Position numbers and translations under genes: made by a program. From Anaerolineaceae bacterium (GTDB lineage Bacteria > Chloroflexota > Anaerolineae > Anaerolineales > Anaerolineaceae), in contig JAENZI010000001.1 in the NCBI GenBank assembly GCA_016841365.1, positions 62,001 through 126,000 on the forward strand: DNA of 64,000 nucleotides, in the 5' to 3' direction. Every line of letters begins with the position of its first letter. The stretch's first letter is position 1. Under the pieces are notes generated by a model. That model saw only the letters and a program-made list of their open reading frames with translations. It made no database searches and was not told where the DNA came from. Of this stretch, positions 54,570-64,000 are shown in pieces.

Positions 54570-54842
54570 TTAACCCTGAATATCCACACGGTCCACAATG
54601 CCAACGATCACGGAAATGATGCACCCATCAGGCAGGTTTAACACTTGGCGTGCCCCATTGCCCTCCCGGTTGACGAGGACAGTGTCGCCAATCCCTGCAT
54701 GTGTGTGATCTACAGCGATGAAGTCTGCGTCGTCATCATCCTCTTCAGTCACCATTGGCTGAACAACCAGCAGACGGCGGTTGTCAAAGTGGGGGTGACT
54801 GATGGTCGTAACGACTGTGCCGACAACTTTCCCAAGAATCAT
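54570..54842 (-). CDS. Microcompartment vertex protein, EutN/CcmL family (third copy)
   Basis: A 90-residue BMC-P protein closing the fivefold corners of a protein shell. MILGKVVGTVVTTISHP at the N-terminus, LLVVQPM, HTHAGIGDTVLVNREGNGAR and IVGIVDRVDIQ at the C-terminus follow the family. An acidic run EEDDDDAD in a surface loop sets it apart from its two neighbours. Last gene of the shell operon, preceded by GGAG; 12 bases after the second vertex gene. Confidence 0.93.
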   Translation of the reverse strand: MILGKVVGTVVTTISHPHFDNRRLLVVQPMVTEEDDDDADFIAVDHTHAGIGDTVLVNREGNGARQVLNLPDGCIISVIVGIVDRVDIQG

Positions 54843-54854
54843 TTACAACTCCGA

Positions 54855-55175
54855 TTAGGTAAACCGGTTTTCGCCGGGGCGTAACTTGTAATCAAAATCA
54901 CCATGGGGGCGCACATCCAGTTCATCCACAATGCCTACAAGGGCTAAATCAACTGGCACAAAAGTGATCTCCGGCATGGCAAGGGCTGCCTCACGCGACC
55001 TGACCATCACACACAGGTCACCAACCCCAGCTTGCACCACATCAGCAGCCACTTGCAGCTCGCCAACAGGCTCAAGCTGCTTATTGAGGGGTTGTACAAT
55101 CAGCAATTTAATGCCCTCAACACCGGGGTATTTGACAGTACACACGGCTGTACCGTGAACACGTCCAAAAAGCAT
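54855..55175 (-). CDS. Microcompartment vertex protein, EutN/CcmL family (second copy)
   Basis: A 106-residue BMC-P: MLFGRVHGTAVCTVKYPGV, KLLIVQPLNKQ, VQAGVGDLCVMVRSREAAL and VGIVDELDV. It is longer than its paralogues because of a C-terminal tail (RPHGDFDYKLRPGENRFT) that may reach inside or outside the shell. Three paralogues in one operon suggest heteromeric or alternative vertices. Starts three bases after the 119-residue protein gene. Confidence 0.92.
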   Translation of the reverse strand: MLFGRVHGTAVCTVKYPGVEGIKLLIVQPLNKQLEPVGELQVAADVVQAGVGDLCVMVRSREAALAMPEITFVPVDLALVGIVDELDVRPHGDFDYKLRPGENRFT

Positions 55176-55178
55176 GGG

Positions 55179-55538
55179 TTAGCTCATTCTTACGTTGTTA
55201 AGCACACGGGTGATGATGGTATCTAATAATTTGTCATCAATCTGATCACCCAATTTTGCTTTAACGGCTGAACGAATGCGCTGCCTGAGGAGCTCATCAT
55301 CTGAAGCTTTGTCAGTTATAGGTGCGCTGTTTGCTGCGGATTTGACGGGTTCAGACAAATAGGGACGGATAGGTGCTGAAGGTGGATGCTGATGAGGTTG
55401 GATCAATTTGACACCCAGCCGTTCAGCCTTTTCAAATGCGAGCTCCGTCAACACAACATCTTCACCCACGGTGAGCGTATACTTGCCGCCCGCTGCCATA
55501 TCTTCAATGTCGCGCTCAGTATAAAATTTCTTGGCCAT
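55179..55538 (-). CDS. Microcompartment-associated small protein with possible encapsulation helix, unknown function
   Basis: A 119-residue protein. Residues 1-46 (FYTERDIEDMAAGGKYTLTV ... TELAFEKAERLGVKL) resemble the opening of EutQ/EutT-type proteins, where a helix and strand lead to AxxxGVKL. A flexible Pro/Ser/Ala-rich linker (47-80) follows, then two C-terminal amphipathic helices, the last being DKLLDTIITRVLNNVRM. This end fits an encapsulation peptide, so it may be lumen cargo or a scaffold. No catalytic motif recognised. AAGGAG is six bases before ATG. Confidence 0.8.
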   Translation of the reverse strand: MAKKFYTERDIEDMAAGGKYTLTVGEDVVLTELAFEKAERLGVKLIQPHQHPPSAPIRPYLSEPVKSAANSAPITDKASDDELLRQRIRSAVKAKLGDQIDDKLLDTIITRVLNNVRMS

Positions 55539-55569: not shown

Positions 55570-56196
55570 TTATCCGGGAATGCCTTCCAGTTCTTCTAAT
55601 GCACTGATCGCAGCATTTTTTGCGGTATTGATCTCTGCTTCGCTTCCAGAAAGCCACATCCTGCCGAATCTGCCAACGGAAGAAACGTGAATGATCTTGA
55701 TGGACGCTTTCTTTTCAGCCTCGTTGCATGCGTAATTGATATAAGCCGCCGGGGCACATTCGAGCACCAATAATGTTTCGCCCGGGACGAGGATGCTGCC
55801 CTTGCGGAACCGGTTGAGAAGCTGTGCCTGATAGGAATCAACATTGGTGATGACCTGGGTCGAAACCACCTGGGGTTTGATGCGGTCTTCTACCTTGAGT
55901 CCAAGCCTTTCCAACACGACACGTCCGGCTTCTTTGACCGCCGCCTGGTTGAGCGAATGCACCTCAAACATACCAAATTCGCGTTCGACAATCTGCGCGC
56001 CCGGTTTAGCCTCAGTGGCTTTGACGGCAATATCTACCACCCGGAACACTTCATTGCCTGGCGCCATTTCAACATAGAGCGACGCCATCCCTTCCACCGG
56101 CAGGTCACCCTGGGTCACCGTGCCGATGAAAGCAGAATATTGGGCTTGCATACGGTCAATAAAACAATAACATCGTAATGAGAAGTCTTCTGCCAT
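55570..56196 (-). CDS. Microcompartment trimeric shell protein (tandem BMC domains, BMC-T)
   Basis: A 208-residue protein with two BMC-type halves. The first half (about 8-100) has a Cys-x-Cys pair (RCYCF) and strand ASLYVEMAPGNEVFRVVDIAVK. The second (about 105-205) has KGSILVPGETLLVLECAPAAY and AEINTAKNAAISALEELEG. The N-terminal half differs clearly from the usual hexamer domain, so the trimer may have a wide or gated pore. AAGGAG precedes ATG. Direct pore residues cannot be placed by eye. Confidence 0.88.
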   Translation of the reverse strand: MAEDFSLRCYCFIDRMQAQYSAFIGTVTQGDLPVEGMASLYVEMAPGNEVFRVVDIAVKATEAKPGAQIVEREFGMFEVHSLNQAAVKEAGRVVLERLGLKVEDRIKPQVVSTQVITNVDSYQAQLLNRFRKGSILVPGETLLVLECAPAAYINYACNEAEKKASIKIIHVSSVGRFGRMWLSGSEAEINTAKNAAISALEELEGIPG

Positions 56197-56212: not shown

Positions 56213-57085
56213 CTAATTCATCCAGTCATGCATGGCGATCCCGAGCGGGGTGATGAACAGCGGATTGCTGGGAACCCGGGTGGGCAGGCTTGTGATCTCT
56301 GAAATAACCTCCGAGATGCCCGGGAAGAGGGGTGTGCCGCCAACTAAGATGATTGACCTGGCACCGCTGCCACGAATGTGCTTTTCCACTATTGTTCCCA
56401 TTTTCTCCATCACCAGCCGCACAATCGGAAAGAGTCGAGACTGCTCAGCAGGGTCTTTCTTCAGTGCTTCTGCTTCTTCGAACGAAATGTCGTTCGCCCC
56501 GGCGATCACCAGGGAGAGGTGCGTGCCGCCTGTAGCTTCATCTGCTGTGTAAACGACCTCGCCATTTTCAAAAATCGCAATGCCTGTTGTGCCGCCGCCA
56601 ATGTCGACGATGACGCCATCCTGTATACGCAGAACATTATTTGCGGCGGTCGGTTCATCGATCAAACCCTGGCATGCCATCCCTGCTGCTTCGATCACAT
56701 GGGCTGTTGCGGCACGCTCTGCCTGCGGGACGCCAGGTGGATACCCACTGGCGGCATGGGATAATGTTCTCCCAAGTTTCGCTTGCAACCGCTGCTTCAT
56801 CGCCCGTAAGAGGTCTACAGCCCCGATGAAATCAACCACCAAACCATCCCGCACAATCTGAGTGAATTGATATTCGCCGACGATGGGTTCGCCTTTTTCA
56901 TTCAACACAACCATCACCGTATAGGCTGTGCCAAGGTCCACCCCAACTTTAAAGCTGCCATTGGAGGGCAAATCATCAACGGCGTGTGGGGTACTGTCGC
57001 TCAGTGATATAACTTGTTGTGCCTTTTCAAGCAGCTGTGCAGGCTCAGACCATTTGTGGTTTGATCTCGATTCCGTCAAAGACAA
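56213..57085 (-). CDS. EutJ-like Hsp70/actin-fold protein of the microcompartment operon
   Basis: A 290-residue actin-fold ATPase related to EutJ and DnaK. FKVGVDLGTAYTVMVVLNEKG (phosphate-1), [18 protein letters not shown] (phosphate-2) and IILVGGTPLFPGISEVI (adenosine) are clear. The first 40 residues include a short amphipathic helix (PAQLLEKAQQVISL). The start is TTG at 57085 with AAGG six bases upstream and 8 bases past the hexamer stop; ATG within the conserved fold would be too late. Role as an assembly or enzyme-reactivation chaperone is known only by analogy. Confidence 0.88.
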   Translation of the reverse strand: MSLTESRSNHKWSEPAQLLEKAQQVISLSDSTPHAVDDLPSNGSFKVGVDLGTAYTVMVVLNEKGEPIVGEYQFTQIVRDGLVVDFIGAVDLLRAMKQRLQAKLGRTLSHAASGYPPGVPQAERAATAHVIEAAGMACQGLIDEPTAANNVLRIQDGVIVDIGGGTTGIAIFENGEVVYTADEATGGTHLSLVIAGANDISFEEAEALKKDPAEQSRLFPIVRLVMEKMGTIVEKHIRGSGARSIILVGGTPLFPGISEVISEITSLPTRVPSNPLFITPLGIAMHDWMN

Positions 57086-57093
57086 ACCCGGCC

Positions 57094-57411
57094 TTATTTA
57101 CTCTCTTTTACGAAGGCACCCTTTTCGCTCTTCGGCAGGATCATTTCCACATCTTCGTGCGGTCTTGGGATGACATGGACGGAAACCAGTTCGCCGACGC
57201 GTTTTGCAGCAGCAGCGCCTGCATCCGTTGCAGCCTTGACTGCACCGACATCGCCGCGGCACATGACGGTCACGAATCCGCCGCCGACATATTCAGAGCC
57301 GATCAAAACCACGTTTGCGGATTTGACCATTGCGTCGGCTGCTTCGATTGCGCCAACCAGCCCTTTTGTTTCGATCATCCCTAATGCAATTAATTTTGTG
57401 TCTACAGCCAT
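57094..57411 (-). CDS. Microcompartment hexameric shell protein (BMC-H, PduA/EutM type)
   Basis: A 105-residue single BMC domain: [21 protein letters not shown], pore-region residues [12 protein letters not shown], then [23 protein letters not shown] and [11 protein letters not shown], all typical of PduA/EutM. A short charged C-terminal tail follows. It is the only hexamer in this window, so it should make the facets. AAAGG lies before ATG. Confidence 0.97.
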
Positions 57412-57444: not shown

Positions 57445-58902
57445 CTAGAGTCTCAATAAATCTTCAACCACACTGCGAACAGCCTTCTCAATTTCTTGAG
57501 GTGAAGGCCCGGGTTTTAGCTGCCCAGGAACCATTGCTGCTGCAGGTGGGGGAGATATTTCATAAGCAAGGCGTTTGATGTTCATCAGGTGCGTGGTTGT
57601 GACATTGTCACCCGTAATTGAGCCGCCCACGCCTCCCGCGCCTAATGTTAACGATGGCATAACGCCCGTTGTTAAGCCAATGGCACCCAGTGTGCCCATG
57701 GTATTCACTGCGATGCGGAAAACAGGTTTTTCTAAGCCAAATGCCATGATGACATCTTCATCCGTCGCATGAATGATCAGGCTGTGGCCCCGGCCGCCGA
57801 ATTGAATGAGTTCGATGCAACGTTCGCATCCGGCTTCCCAACCTTCTTCTTCGTACCATCCGAGGACAGTGGTGAGCTTTTCCCTTGAGAGCGGTTCTTC
57901 TTTGCCGGTCTTTTTAATAGGTGTCACCAAGATCCTGGTACCCTTGGTTATCTCAAACCCTGCCATGCCAGCCACATATTCAGCCGGTTTCCCAACAACC
58001 GCAGTGTTCATGCTGCCATCCGGATAAAACAGGAGATTGCGCAAGAGATCCGTTTGCTGTGGATCTGTGAAATATGCGCCTTCGCGTTCCATTAAACTGC
58101 GCAGTTGGGCTGCGATGGGTGCATCAGCCACCACCGATTGTTCAGTGGCACAAATCGTTGAGCAATCAAAGGCTTTGCTGGCTGTGATAAACCTGGCTGC
58201 TTTTTCGATATCTGCAGAGCGGTCCACATATGCTGGGACGTTTCCGGGTCCAACACCAATGGCTGGTTTACCGGTGGAATGGGCGGCGCGCACCATTGGG
58301 GTGCCGCCGGTTGCCAATATCAGTGCTACGTATTTATGGTGCATCAGTGCCTGGGTGCCTTCCAGGCTGATATGCTGCATACAACTGATCAAGCCTTCAG
58401 GCGCACCGTTTTCAATCGCGGCTTGAGCCATTATGCGGGTTGTTTCGTAGCAGCATTTTGCTGCTGCGGGGTGGGGTGCAATGACGATTGCATTGCGGGC
58501 TTTGATTGCCACTAAAATTTTATACATAACCGTTGAGGTCGGGTTGGTGCTCGGGGTCAACCCGGCGATCACGCCGACCGGCCAGGCGATCTCATAGAGT
58601 TTGTGGTCGACATCATGCCTGATCACGCCAACTGTTTTCAGGTCTTTGATGCTTTCCCAAACGTTTTTGGAGGCAAACTCGTTTTTAAGGCGCTTGTGCT
58701 CCGGCACACCATACCCGGTTTCTTCATGTGCCAGAATGCCCAATCGTTCAGAAGCGTCGAGGGCAGCGGTCGCCATTGCCGCGCAAACACGATCGACCTG
58801 TTCTTGAGTCGCTGTAGACCATTCCTTCCAGGCTGCAAAAGCCTGCCCTGAAAGATCCCTGGCCTCCTGAATGGATTGTAGATCTTTATCGATTGCTGGC
58901 AT
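57445..58902 (-). CDS. Acylating aldehyde dehydrogenase of the microcompartment
   Basis: A 485-residue CoA-acylating aldehyde dehydrogenase, turning aldehyde, NAD+ and CoA into acyl-CoA. The catalytic Cys is in FDCSTICATEQSVV; WPVGVIAGLTPSTNPTSTVM and GVGPGNVPAYVDRSADIEKA are substrate and cofactor blocks. The C-terminus has a Pro-rich linker (PPPAAAMVPGQLKPGPS) and then the helix QEIEKAVRSVVEDLLRL, a classic encapsulation peptide. With DeoC supplying acetaldehyde, acetyl-CoA is the expected product. Gap to the hexamer is 33 bases. Confidence 0.95.
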   Translation of the reverse strand: MPAIDKDLQSIQEARDLSGQAFAAWKEWSTATQEQVDRVCAAMATAALDASERLGILAHEETGYGVPEHKRLKNEFASKNVWESIKDLKTVGVIRHDVDHKLYEIAWPVGVIAGLTPSTNPTSTVMYKILVAIKARNAIVIAPHPAAAKCCYETTRIMAQAAIENGAPEGLISCMQHISLEGTQALMHHKYVALILATGGTPMVRAAHSTGKPAIGVGPGNVPAYVDRSADIEKAARFITASKAFDCSTICATEQSVVADAPIAAQLRSLMEREGAYFTDPQQTDLLRNLLFYPDGSMNTAVVGKPAEYVAGMAGFEITKGTRILVTPIKKTGKEEPLSREKLTTVLGWYEEEGWEAGCERCIELIQFGGRGHSLIIHATDEDVIMAFGLEKPVFRIAVNTMGTLGAIGLTTGVMPSLTLGAGGVGGSITGDNVTTTHLMNIKRLAYEISPPPAAAMVPGQLKPGPSPQEIEKAVRSVVEDLLRL

Positions 58903-58907
58903 ATGAA

Positions 58908-59198
58908 TTAGCCTTTCTCGAAGGTGATTTCTCCATCTACTTCCAAACTGTCGATCATGGCCATGATCACCGCATCGACCGGGCGTTTATCAGTGATTGT
59001 GGTTTGGCGTGCGCTGGAACCGTGCGCTGTGAGCACCAAGTCGCCGATGCCAGCGTTAACTGTGTCTACAGCAACGTAGGGCTTGCCGATCGGGTTGCCA
59101 TGTTCATCCGTCTGACGGAGGATGAGCAGCTTGCGTCCGGTGATCTTTTCATCTTTAATAGTTGAAACTGTTGTACCAATGACTTTGGCGATCAACAT
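58908..59198 (-). CDS. Microcompartment vertex protein, EutN/CcmL family (first copy)
   Basis: A 96-residue BMC-P: MLIAKVIGTTVSTIKDEKI, KLLILRQTDEHGNPIGKPYV, VNAGIGDLVLTAHGSSARQT and VIMAMIDSLEVDGE. It sits between the aldolase and aldehyde dehydrogenase genes rather than with its two paralogues at the operon end. GGAG precedes ATG. Confidence 0.95.
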   Translation of the reverse strand: MLIAKVIGTTVSTIKDEKITGRKLLILRQTDEHGNPIGKPYVAVDTVNAGIGDLVLTAHGSSARQTTITDKRPVDAVIMAMIDSLEVDGEITFEKG

Positions 59199-59213: not shown

Positions 59214-60134
59214 TTAATAAGACGAGGTTTTTTCTGTTTTTTGATTTGACGGTGTGTCATCTGCCTGGATGATTTTGATGCCCGCACTGGCACCGATCCG
59301 TGTTGCGCCGGCAGCAATCATCTGTTCTGCTTCTTCATGGGAATGAATGCCGCCTGCTGCCTTCACGCCCAGGCTCGGGCCGACAGTGCGCCGCATCAGG
59401 GCAACATCATGCACCGTTGCACCACCGCTGGAAAAGCCTGTTGAAGTCTTCACAAAATCGGCACCAGCCTCTTTTGCCAGCAAGCATGCAATCACTTTTT
59501 CTTCATCGGTTAATAAGGCTGTTTCAATAATTACTTTCACCAGCGCATTAGCATCATGAGCTGTCTTAACGACACCGCGAATATCCCGGGCGACCAGTTC
59601 GCTATCCCCGGCTTTTAGTGCGCCGATATTGATGACCATATCGATCTCGGTAGCACCGTTTTCGAGGGCGTCTTTGGTTTCAACCACCTTCACCTCTGTG
59701 GTCGTTGCCCCAAGGGGGAAACCTATCACGGTGCAGACTTTGACATCAGAACCCCTCAGCAATTCTGCGCATAATTTGACGTTTGTGGGGTTGACGCACA
59801 CCGATGCAAAATGATATTTCTTGGCTTCGTAACAGAGTTGGGCAATCTGGTCTGCGGTTGCGTCTGGCTTGAGGAGGGTATGATCGATTGTGCTTGCCAG
59901 GGATTTGTCATCCGGGATGATGCCGACTGTGGAAGTGAGGCGTTCAGCACCAGCACTGATGACATGCCCGGCGTTATCAAAACAGGTTTTAACTTTGACG
60001 CCTTCTGCTGCTTCCAACAGGCAATAAGCGCCTTCTGGTAGATTGGCGTGCTCCTCGTGCTCAGCAATAGCCAATAGCACCTCGCGAGTGATAACCTCAA
60101 CTAAAGTCTCTATTGTTTTTTTATCTGGTGTCAT
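59214..60134 (-). CDS. deoC: Deoxyribose-phosphate aldolase with N-terminal extension
   Basis: A 306-residue aldolase splitting 2-deoxyribose-5-phosphate into acetaldehyde and glyceraldehyde-3-phosphate. The barrel starts about residue 80 ([12 protein letters not shown]) and keeps the key residues: Asp in EIDMVIN, Schiff-base Lys in [10 protein letters not shown], Lys in GVKAAGGI. The roughly 80-residue extension holds an amphipathic helix ([17 protein letters not shown]), the likely encapsulation peptide, and a small domain with two Cys. The start is ATG 60134 (GGGAAG upstream) or the GTG at 60140 that overlaps the rpiB-like stop (GTGA). Usual DeoC is 215-260 residues. Confidence 0.95.
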
Positions 60135-60136
60135 GA

Positions 60137-60715
60137 TCACTTCCCATCTTTAGAAAAGCGTTGTTCAATTGCAGTAATTTTATCGACCCGCCTGGCGTGA
60201 CGGTCGCCGCCGAAATCCGTCGCGAGCCAGGTGTTCAAGATTTGTTTTGCTAGATTCGTGCCAATTAAACCTGCGCCGAGGGTTAATACATTCGCATTAT
60301 TGTGTTCTCGGCTGTTTACAGCAGTGGCATAATCATAACACAAGGCGGCGCGTATGCCAGGTACTTTATTGGCTGCCATGCATGACCCAATGCCAGCACC
60401 ATCAATGATAACGCCGCGCCATGCCTGACCGGAGGCGACGGCTTCAGCAACTGCAAGGGCTATATCGGGATAGTCCACCGATTCCTTGGTGTGCGTGCCA
60501 ACATCGATGACTTCATAATTATTCTCAATTAAATTCTGTTTCAGGATTTCTTTAAGGTCTACACCACCATGGTCCGTTCCAATTGCGACAGTTTTCTTTT
60601 TTGTAGGTGGTTTTTGTTCGCTGGATTGGATTGAGTTTGCATTTTCATGCATGGATTGACCCACAATGCGTTGAACAATGTCATGAAGTTCTTGACCTGA
60701 TATGTCATTATTCAT
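60137..60715 (-). CDS. RpiB/LacAB-family sugar-phosphate isomerase, divergent, with N-terminal encapsulation helix
   Basis: A 192-residue isomerase. Residues 1-40 are an extension with helix [16 protein letters not shown] and a Ser/Gln-rich linker. The core has [36 protein letters not shown] and [19 protein letters not shown], as in RpiB. In classical RpiB a Cys precedes the GTGIG loop; here that position is Asp (IIDGAGIG). It is the first gene of the shell operon. It probably isomerises a phosphorylated pentose, but the substrate could differ from ribose-5-phosphate. Confidence 0.88.
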
Positions 60716-61061: not shown

Positions 61062-62105
61062 ATGAGAACGATTGTCTGGAATGACGATAAACAAGTGATG
61101 GAAATGATCGATCAACGGTTGCTTCCCCAGGAATTTATCATCAACGCCTACGACAATCACAAAGACATTGCCGATGCCATCCGGTCTATGGTTGTGCGCG
61201 GCGCGCCGGCGATTGGGGCCGCGGCTGCCTTTGGCATGGCGCTGGCAGCCTTGAATGCTAAGGCATCTAACACCGAAGCGATGCTTGTTGAGTTGAAGGG
61301 AGCGGGTGAGGTGCTTAACCAAGCCCGGCCGACGGCAGTCAATCTCGCGTGGGCAGTCAAACGGATGTTGAAATCCGCCGAGACCTTTGAAGGGTCTGTG
61401 AAAGACCTGCGCGAACATCTTTTAGATGAAGCGAAAACCATCGCTGACGAGGATGTGGCAACCAATAAACGCATGGCTGAATTCGGCGCAGCACTGATAG
61501 ATGACGGCGACCATATTGTCCATCACTGCAACACGGGCGCGTTAGCGACGGTAGATTGGGGAACCGCCCTCGGTGTGATTCATATGGCGCATGAGCAGGG
61601 CAAGCGCGTCCATGTTTTTGTGGATGAGACCCGGCCGCGTTTGCAAGGCGCACGATTGACCGCCTGGGAGCTGGAACAATACGGCATCCCCTATGACATC
61701 ATTACCGACAATTCATCCGGTTACCTGATGCGTAAAGGGATGGTGCAGAAAGTGATCTTTGGTGCGGATCGTGTGGCAGCCAACGGCGATGTTGCCAATA
61801 AGATCGGCAGTTATATGGTGGCTTTAGCCGCGTATGATAACGGCATCCCGGCTTATTCTGCCTTCCCGATCTCAACGGTTGATTTTGACCTGGCGCGCGG
61901 CGAACTGATCCCGATCGAAGAGCGAACCGAGGATGAAGTGCTGGATCTGACCTTAATGGGGCAGAAAGTTGCGCCTCAAACGGCTTCAGCGCGCAACTTC
62001 GCCTTTGATGTGACGCCGTTTCGCTTAATCTCGGCTTGGATCACTGAAAAAGGTGTGATCTACCCGCCGTTTGACAAGAACCTGCGAATCGCAATGAAAG
62101 GTTGA
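61062..62105 (+). CDS. mtnA: S-methyl-5-thioribose-1-phosphate isomerase
   Basis: A 347-residue isomerase turning methylthioribose-1-phosphate (or 5-deoxyribose-1-phosphate) into the ribulose form. GAPAIGAAAAFGMALA, RPTAVNLAWAVKRM, HHCNTGALATVDWG with the catalytic Cys, VDETRPRLQGARLTAWEL and IFGADRVAANGDVANKIG with the catalytic Asp are conserved. GGAAGTGAAAC precedes ATG. Next gene begins at once. No other methionine-salvage genes (mtnB, C, D) are visible. Confidence 0.96.
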   Translation: MRTIVWNDDKQVMEMIDQRLLPQEFIINAYDNHKDIADAIRSMVVRGAPAIGAAAAFGMALAALNAKASNTEAMLVELKGAGEVLNQARPTAVNLAWAVKRMLKSAETFEGSVKDLREHLLDEAKTIADEDVATNKRMAEFGAALIDDGDHIVHHCNTGALATVDWGTALGVIHMAHEQGKRVHVFVDETRPRLQGARLTAWELEQYGIPYDIITDNSSGYLMRKGMVQKVIFGADRVAANGDVANKIGSYMVALAAYDNGIPAYSAFPISTVDFDLARGELIPIEERTEDEVLDLTLMGQKVAPQTASARNFAFDVTPFRLISAWITEKGVIYPPFDKNLRIAMKG

Positions 62106-62113
62106 ATACAAAT

Positions 62114-63082
62114 ATGAGCATTATTCTAACAGGGTCGATCGCGTTTGATTATCTAATGCGTTTCCCGGGTCATTTCAAAGATCATATTCTGCCGGAGCAT
62201 CTTGATTCGATCAGCCTTTCCTTCCTGGTGGACGACATGGTCCGCAGACCTGGCGGCGTGGCAGCGAATATCGCCTACTCCCTGGGGCTACTGGGAGAAC
62301 GACCGCGTCTTGTGGCGACGGCTGGCGTGGATTTTGAGGAATATCGGAAGAATTTAGAGGCAGCAGGTGTTGACGCCAGCGGTGTAAAAATCATTGAGGA
62401 GAAGTTCACTGCCTCGTTCTTCGTCAACACAGATCTTTCCAATGCGCAGATCGCCAGTTTTTATGCGGGTGCCATGGCGGACGCAGGCCAAATTTCGATG
62501 AAGGAACTTGATCTCTCATCTGATGACCTGGTGATGATTTCGCCAAATTCACCTGATGCGATGATCGATTATGCCCTGGAATGCCAGGAGATCGGTGTGC
62601 CTTATATCTTTGACCCCAGCCAGCAGATCGTGCGATTGGATCAGGCTGGGCTGACTGACGGCATTACCGGCGCATATGCGCTGTTTGCCAACATGTATGA
62701 GTTTGAACTCTTACAGAAGCACTGTCACCTGAGCGCAGAGGAAATTTTGCGTGATTTAGAATTTGCTGTGATCACCCTTGGTAAAGACGGTTCGCGTGTT
62801 TATCAACATGGCGAGTTGCAAGGTGTTGTGCCGATCTTCCCGCCAAAACGGATTGTTGACCCGACAGGGGTTGGAGACGCGTTCCGGGCAGGCTTTTTGA
62901 AAGGTTACCTGAACGACCTGGATATTGTGCTGTGTGCACAAATGGGTTCTTTGGCAGCGACCTATTGTTTGGAAGAAAAGGGAACACAAACCCATTCTTA
63001 TAAGATGAAAGATTTCGTGACCCGTTTCCGGACCGAATTTAACGACGACGGAGCACTGGATGTGCTAATTGAGGGTGCGTAA
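62114..63082 (+). CDS. PfkB-family kinase, adenosine kinase-like
   Basis: A 322-residue ribokinase-fold kinase. IILTGSIAFDYLMRFPG and MVRRPGGVAANIAYSLGLLG form the substrate site; RIVDPTGVGDAFRAGFLKGY supplies the catalytic Asp and anion hole. The pattern with FPGHFKDHILPEHLDSISLSF is that of bacterial adenosine kinase-like members. Adenosine would come from the following SAH hydrolase. ATG 62114 is nine bases after the mtnA stop; a TTG at 62102 overlaps it. Thioribose or other nucleosides remain possible substrates. Confidence 0.88.
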   Translation: MSIILTGSIAFDYLMRFPGHFKDHILPEHLDSISLSFLVDDMVRRPGGVAANIAYSLGLLGERPRLVATAGVDFEEYRKNLEAAGVDASGVKIIEEKFTASFFVNTDLSNAQIASFYAGAMADAGQISMKELDLSSDDLVMISPNSPDAMIDYALECQEIGVPYIFDPSQQIVRLDQAGLTDGITGAYALFANMYEFELLQKHCHLSAEEILRDLEFAVITLGKDGSRVYQHGELQGVVPIFPPKRIVDPTGVGDAFRAGFLKGYLNDLDIVLCAQMGSLAATYCLEEKGTQTHSYKMKDFVTRFRTEFNDDGALDVLIEGA

Positions 63083-63111
63083 TCACCAGCGTTGCACTGC
63101 AACGACTATGA

Positions 63112-64000
<889 letters not shown>

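Follow-up and report, generated by a model that had tools for sequence, protein, structure and literature searches.

We analyzed a stretch of 64,000 nucleotides from an Anaerolineaceae bacterium (positions 62,001 to 126,000 of contig JAENZI010000001.1, assembly GCA_016841365.1; hereafter the window). On its minus strand, at 60137..60715, the window encodes a homolog of RpiB, or ribose-5-phosphate (R5P) isomerase B, and this gene lies among genes for the shell of a bacterial microcompartment (BMC). The protein has 192 amino acids (ATG start) and belongs to the LacAB_rpiB family (PF02502), which it matches with 188 bits against a cut-off of 24.7 (E = 7e-56, profile search). It also passes the equivalog cut-off for RpiB (TIGR01120; 157 bits versus a cut-off of 138.65), and its RpiB core is 75–91% identical to relatives from Anaerolineaceae and Brevefilum metagenome-assembled genomes. 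But where canonical RpiBs have the motif C-G-T-G-[IV]-G, the window protein reads D-G-A-G-I-G-S-C. We will call RpiBs with this aspartate Asp-type and RpiBs with the usual cysteine Cys-type.

The microcompartment locus

All of the locus genes are on the minus strand. Directly after rpiB is deoC (59214..60140), which encodes a class I deoxyribose-phosphate aldolase with an N-terminal extension (TIGR00126, 291 bits); its open reading frame overlaps the 3′ end of rpiB by 4 nt. Beyond deoC are genes for a BMC-P vertex protein of the EutN/CcmL type (58908..59198), an acylating acetaldehyde dehydrogenase (AldDH) with a C-terminal amphipathic helix (57445..58902; TIGR02518, 568 bits, below the cut-off of 620), a BMC-H shell hexamer protein (57094..57411), a EutJ-family protein (56213..57085), and a CcmP-like BMC-T shell protein with tandem domains (55570..56196; NF053796 for CcmP, 256.6 bits, below the cut-off of 340). 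The operon-like row ends with an uncharacterized protein that had no family match in our profile searches (hyp119, 55179..55538) and two more BMC-P vertex proteins (54855..55175 and 54570..54842). The three BMC-P proteins, the BMC-H protein, and the EutJ-like protein were identified by profile matches.

This gene content corresponds to the sugar phosphate utilizing (SPU) type of BMC. This type was introduced by Axen et al., who also reported that an aldolase and an isomerase are fused in Marinimicrobia (PMC4207490), and it is defined by pfam01791 together with pfam02502, with Anaerolineae among the carriers of SPU6 (PMC8217296). The window encodes both signature proteins (DeoC and RpiB) along with shell genes, so by gene content, as read from the sequence, the locus is an SPU-type BMC. 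As described there, SPU BMCs share with the window their shell proteins, a DeoC-type aldolase, an RpiB-type protein, and an acylating AldDH. Unlike them, the window's genome has no detected PduL phosphotransacylase: we did not find PF06130 in this genome, which is 98% complete. In the absence of PduL, the step from acetyl-CoA to acetyl-phosphate in the BMC's cofactor cycle must be done otherwise.

Two other features of the region were noted. The N-terminal ~45 residues of hyp119 resemble an N-terminal domain that is fused to the Asp-type RpiBs of some Acidobacteriota (L216, L217, and L218), which are encoded outside the shell operon (E = 2e-4 for one pair); this domain is perhaps an assembly or targeting module. 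Also, genes for methylthioribose-1-phosphate isomerase (MtnA), a PfkB-type nucleoside/ribose kinase-like protein, and an S-adenosylhomocysteinase-like protein lie at 61062-63999 on the plus strand, divergent from the BMC operon. A cluster for the salvage of nucleosides and S-adenosylmethionine adjoins the locus of the pentose organelle.

Active-site residues of Asp-type and Cys-type RpiBs

We aligned the window RpiB with the RpiBs of E. coli (1nn4), Clostridium thermocellum (3he8), and M. tuberculosis (2vvo; we checked the sequence against this entry), and we number residues as in E. coli. The aspartate (Asp105 of the window protein; codon 60401..60403, minus strand) falls exactly at E. coli's Cys66, as an earlier note on this DNA had claimed. 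Three more positions have switched beyond the one in the earlier note: Thr68 is replaced by alanine (Ala107; codon 60395-60397, minus strand), position 72, which corresponds to the Glu75 base of M. tuberculosis RpiB, is serine (Ser111; codon 60383-60385, minus strand), and position 95 is asparagine. Position 73 of the window protein is cysteine.

Relatives were gathered by a protein search of 396 genomes of the same class, by scanning genome contigs, which gave 80 loci (four from Gemmatimonadota records and one from an Acidobacteria record among them), and by a search of 297 genomes from the phylum of the Acidobacteria locus. As a guard against bias towards close relatives, we fetched 60 additional matches from the class, mostly from the lower-scoring tail. 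Among the resulting non-identical sequences, residue 66 is aspartate in all 153 BMC-type RpiBs, which cover three phyla (Chloroflexota, Gemmatimonadota, and Acidobacteriota), and cysteine in all 37 ordinary RpiBs; no third residue was seen. Position 68 is almost always alanine in the Asp type (150/153, with two valines and one methionine) and threonine or serine in the Cys type. Position 72 is serine in 153/153 Asp-type proteins, versus methionine, valine, isoleucine, or alanine in the Cys-type set, and position 95 is asparagine, versus methionine, arginine, glutamine, or lysine. At these four columns, the two sets have no residue in common. The pocket of the Asp type has also changed at position 91 (tyrosine to alanine or serine) and at position 110 (arginine to glycine in 73%).

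The rest of the active site is retained. Asp9, His10, Tyr43, Asn77, Lys78, Asn100, Asn103, Arg133, His134, and Arg137 are present in all 153 Asp-type proteins, and His99 and Asp42 are each present in 152. Compared to the three solved RpiBs, then, the Asp type has the same fold and the same Asp9, His10, Asp42-Tyr43-Pro44, His99, Asn100, Arg133, and Arg137, and differs by Asp66, Ala68, Ser72, Asn95, and an N-terminal extension.

Could another residue have taken over from Cys66? As the earlier note proposed, we used the alignment with characterized RpiBs to look for one, and there is no other conserved candidate base. A relocated catalytic cysteine (Cys73, in IGSC) is ruled out because this position is alanine or serine in 31 of the 153 proteins, and a glutamate base as in M. 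tuberculosis is ruled out because position 72 is always serine. A sequencing error or a local oddity is ruled out as well, as Asp66 is common to 153 non-identical sequences from three phyla. Finally, the pattern for the contig scan included the peptide IGSCMAAN, which could have biased the sampling, but the split between aspartate and cysteine holds with the whole-genome protein searches and the low-scoring tail.

The viral and plasmid collections yielded no BMC-type member: each of the 80 RpiB-like genes taken from IMG/VR combines Cys66 with Thr68 or Ser68, and the plasmid matches, whose residue 66 was not read, were all below 60% identity.

In a phylogenetic tree built without the four diagnostic columns, a single branch with support of 100/96 separates the Asp-type RpiBs from the rest. 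This tree left out M. tuberculosis RpiB and L185; with these two long branches included, two changes of label are needed. From the sequences, we conclude that the Asp-type RpiB is a branch of single origin that is dedicated to BMCs and whose active site is rebuilt at the end that handles C1 and C2 (D66, A68, S72, and N95).

What the replaced residues do is known from other members of the family. Trypanosomatid RpiB uses Cys69 to abstract the C2 proton and Thr71 to transfer a proton from O2 to O1; the C69S mutant of the Leishmania enzyme and the C69A mutant of the T. cruzi enzyme are inactive (PMC4783025). In LacAB, Cys65 contacts O1, Thr67 contacts O2, and His96 is the ring-opening residue; Met92 of LacA (position 95) lines the pocket, the T67A substitution in LacB reduces activity about 20-fold, and M. 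tuberculosis RpiB uses a carboxylate base, Glu75 (PMC3755991). An R5P isomerase B (EC 5.3.1.6) should have either Cys66 or a glutamate like Glu75 as its base, and the Asp type has Asp66 and Ser72 in 153/153 cases. The Thr68 or Ser68 for proton transfer between O1 and O2 is missing too. In contrast, His99, Asp9, and Arg133/Arg137, for ring opening and phosphate binding, are in place. Cys66 and Thr68, both of which serve specifically to shift hydrogen between C1/O1 and C2/O2, were lost, and they would be of no use with a substrate that is deoxy at C2; the residues that were kept are those for binding and opening a furanose phosphate. Here and below, what we say about catalysis is based on residue conservation and on published mutants of other family members.

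Association with DeoC, shell genes, and a predicted encapsulation helix

A deoC gene lies within the fetched DNA for 138 of the 153 Asp-type genes and for none of the 37 Cys-type genes. Shell genes were found around 95 of the Asp-type genes and, again, around none of the Cys-type genes. Both counts are lower bounds, as many of the loci are short. Across the 396 class genomes, BMC-P vertex proteins are encoded in 100 of the 103 genomes counted as Asp-type (a few dozen of these were assigned by high score and residue 66 was not read) and in 0 of the 27 genomes with only Cys-type matches. At 15 Asp-type loci there is no deoC nearby. We checked 16 genomes whose Asp-type gene is apart from shell genes or deoC, and all of them carry both BMC-P genes and deoC. 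At three loci from the Acidobacteriota phylum (L205, L206, and L215), RpiB and DeoC form a single polypeptide of ~470–480 residues with RpiB first. This distribution shows that the Asp-type RpiB is a standing partner of the putatively encapsulated aldolase DeoC.

Some of the DeoC proteins have features of their own. Those of L127, L132, and L205 have a cysteine-rich motif (CxxC and CxxxC pairs) in the linker that joins the putative targeting helix to the aldolase domain, and this motif looks capable of binding metal. The window DeoC has phenylalanine (KTSTGF) at the position of Lys172 in E. coli's deoxyribose-phosphate aldolase (DERA), whose motif is KTSTGK and whose Lys172 has been suggested to help with ring opening. 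As other DeoCs (6d33, for example) also have phenylalanine there, this is just a hint.

The earlier note described the isomerase as encapsulated, and both the position of rpiB within the shell operon and the predicted structure agree with this. In the AlphaFold2 model (mean pLDDT, a per-residue confidence score, of 93.6), a helix at residues 7–26 (60638..60697, minus strand; pLDDT about 89–90) is followed by a linker that is predicted to be flexible (residues 27–41; pLDDT of 67) and then by the RpiB fold. The closest solved structure is RpiB from C. thermocellum (3he8), with a TM-score (TMt) of 0.98 and a root mean square deviation of 0.7 Å. The helical moment of the N-terminal helix is 0.42, and 2.7% of shuffled sequences score as high; the moment is above that of most shuffles for AldDH as well and is borderline for DeoC. 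N-terminal extensions of at least 20 residues are found in 97% of Asp-type RpiBs but in 24% of Cys-type RpiBs. The predicted helix and linker fit an encapsulation peptide.

The deoC gene of the BMC locus is the only one in its genome, which also encodes DeoB and a pyrimidine-nucleoside phosphorylase. Because these two are present and deoC is absent elsewhere, the sugar of deoxynucleosides appears to run through this BMC. The same genome encodes two other RpiBs, both Cys-type, and one of these adjoins a transketolase gene. The third RpiB paralog of the genome, L002, has Cys66, serine at the position of the ring-opening histidine, and glutamate at His10, and its neighbors are two dihydroxyacetone kinase-like genes and a triosephosphate isomerase gene, which suggests that L002 is an isomerase for short-chain (triose or tetrose) phosphates. 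As an internal control, proteins like L002 show the opposite pattern to the Asp type: in a triose or tetrose context, they keep Cys66 and lose the ring-opening histidine. Similarly, Coccidioides RpiB has serine instead of this histidine, and shorter substrates have been proposed for it (PMC3212906).

Proposed ring opening for DeoC, and the alternatives

Asp-type RpiBs probably do a job other than isomerizing ribose phosphates. A different base, substrate, or reaction is likely, in line with the expectation in the earlier note of a different base or substrate. The reading that we favor, tentatively, is that the Asp-type RpiB is an encapsulated openase or mutarotase that converts the furanose form of 2-deoxyribose-5-phosphate (dR5P) to the open aldehyde for DeoC. 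The furanose would bind via the retained phosphate site (Arg133 and Arg137), and the retained His99 would protonate the ring oxygen. Asp66, which sits where the canonical cysteine contacts O1, would be the general base acting on the O1 hydroxyl. The ring would then open, yielding the free aldehyde needed by DeoC's Schiff-base lysine. As dR5P lacks the C2 hydroxyl, this sugar would not be isomerized, and both the base for C2 and the shuttle between O2 and O1 (Cys66 and Thr68) would be dispensable. The openase would work beside DeoC, and sometimes fused to it, with the acylating AldDH acting next.

The earlier note was right that an aldose-ketose isomerase cannot act on dR5P. It went on to argue that this enzyme is not simply one step before DeoC. 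This conclusion is not supported: the Asp type is strictly tied to DeoC, is fused to it at three loci, and keeps the residues for ring opening and phosphate binding, so ring opening just before DeoC is a live option. An openase would also resolve the gap in logic that the earlier note saw in an isomerase next to DeoC, whose substrate has no C2 hydroxyl.

There is a precedent for feeding an aldolase in this way. YhcH, whose gene is part of many operons for sialate catabolism, is a demonstrated openase and supplies sialate aldolase with the open form of its substrate (PMC8141875). The N-acetylneuraminate anomerases YhcH and NanM are functional analogs only: YhcH is likewise encoded with an aldolase pathway, but neither protein is in the RpiB family, YhcH contains zinc, and free sialic acid opens slowly while sugar phosphates open quickly. 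The proposed pair of Asp66 and His99 resembles the carboxylate/histidine pair with which aldose 1-epimerases of the GalM type open hemiacetals, although their fold is unrelated to that of RpiB and they act on free hexoses.

Would DeoC need such help? dR5P is 99.8% furanose (PMC5975929). Using published constants for DERA and spontaneous opening at 40–100 per second, and presuming that DeoC takes only the open form, we estimate that the spontaneous step would cut the flux 2–4-fold at 1 mM DeoC and 14–34-fold at 10 mM DeoC. By this estimate, spontaneous opening is fast enough in dilute assays but is limiting at millimolar DeoC. Several points weigh against an openase. Ring opening of dR5P was argued not to be rate-limiting for DERA, as phosphorylated furanoses open at 40–100 per second, and DERA itself may open the ring (PMC5975929). 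Millimolar DeoC inside the shell is an assumption of our flux argument. The AlphaFold2 model is of a monomer without ligand, and the active site spans two subunits. A carboxylate can be the base of an isomerase, as for Glu75 in M. tuberculosis (albeit at position 72), and the changes at positions 68 and 72 could simply make room for Asp66.

These last points lead to an explanation that we consider nearly as likely as an openase: Asp66 would be a plain replacement for the cysteine base in an R5P isomerase, with Ala68, Ser72, and Asn95 making room for the carboxylate or tuning it, and the BMC would handle sugars from both RNA and DNA. The RpiB fold (0.7 Å from 3he8), the TIGR01120 score, and the retention of nearly all of the residues for binding and ring opening are as expected for an isomerase, a carboxylate base has its precedent in M. 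tuberculosis RpiB (PMC3755991), and Sutter et al. 2021 assume that R5P is isomerized in SPU (PMC8217296). On the other hand, the shuttle residue Thr68 is gone as well, and its loss in LacB (T67A) costs about 20-fold in activity (PMC3755991). R5P and ribulose-5-phosphate are off the route from DeoC to AldDH and yield no aldehyde, which leaves the strict pairing and fusion with DeoC unexplained, and the genome already has two Cys-type RpiBs. We think it less likely that the Asp type acts on another cyclic sugar phosphate in a reaction of another kind, so as to make or consume the substrate or the product of DeoC; for instance, it could be an epimerase or a dehydratase, or it could isomerize a sugar phosphate that is longer or is an unusual deoxy sugar. 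The changes at positions 91, 95, and 110 suggest an altered shape of the pocket, and catalysis varies among the enzymes that have this family or fold in common, which include LacAB, tetrulose-phosphate isomerase, and 4-deoxy-L-threo-5-hexosulose-uronate ketol-isomerase. But Arg133 and Arg137, which bind the phosphate of a pentose-5-phosphate, are invariant, and the gene context includes no other sugar enzyme.

Two further proposals seem improbable. DeoC produces glyceraldehyde-3-phosphate, triose-phosphate isomerase uses a carboxylate base, and one Atribacteria SPU locus has a gene for that enzyme (PMC4207490), so the Asp type might isomerize the triose phosphate. This is very doubtful: glyceraldehyde-3-phosphate cannot cyclize, yet His99 is nearly invariant and the phosphate-binding residues at pentose distance are invariant, while family members beside triose and tetrose genes lack His99 (L002). 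Least probable of all is a non-catalytic scaffold or assembly factor, that is, a pseudo-enzyme that helps to package DeoC. The loss of the known catalytic cysteine, the N-terminal helix of the encapsulation type, and the fusions to DeoC would suit such a role, but a scaffold would drift, and here the other active-site residues are conserved almost absolutely and the replacements are invariant or nearly so, as one typically sees in a catalyst that works.

Returning to the openase, we speculate, with slightly more reserve than for the window protein, that the entire BMC-dedicated branch of RpiB consists of ring-openers for dR5P: isomerases that were stripped of their isomerization chemistry but kept the half that opens the ring, and that are needed because spontaneous opening becomes the bottleneck once the aldolase is densely packed. 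If so, we know of no earlier example of an openase for a phosphosugar, nor of an openase that is encapsulated.

SPU BMCs with DeoC and RpiB were already known, and SPU is described as among the most widespread types of BMC, with >280 loci in 26 phyla (PMC8217296). In passages on SPU, Axen 2014 and Sutter 2021 label its RpiB a ribose-5-phosphate isomerase and do not mention the loss of Cys66 and Thr68, and we did not come across the active-site switch in the literature. One of the two signature enzymes of SPU has thus had its role assigned by an annotation with which its active site is at odds. With the sharp rule based on Asp66, Ala68, Ser72, and Asn95, an entire class of enzymes would be annotated correctly, a single residue can mark SPU cargo, and the puzzle of an isomerase beside DeoC becomes testable.
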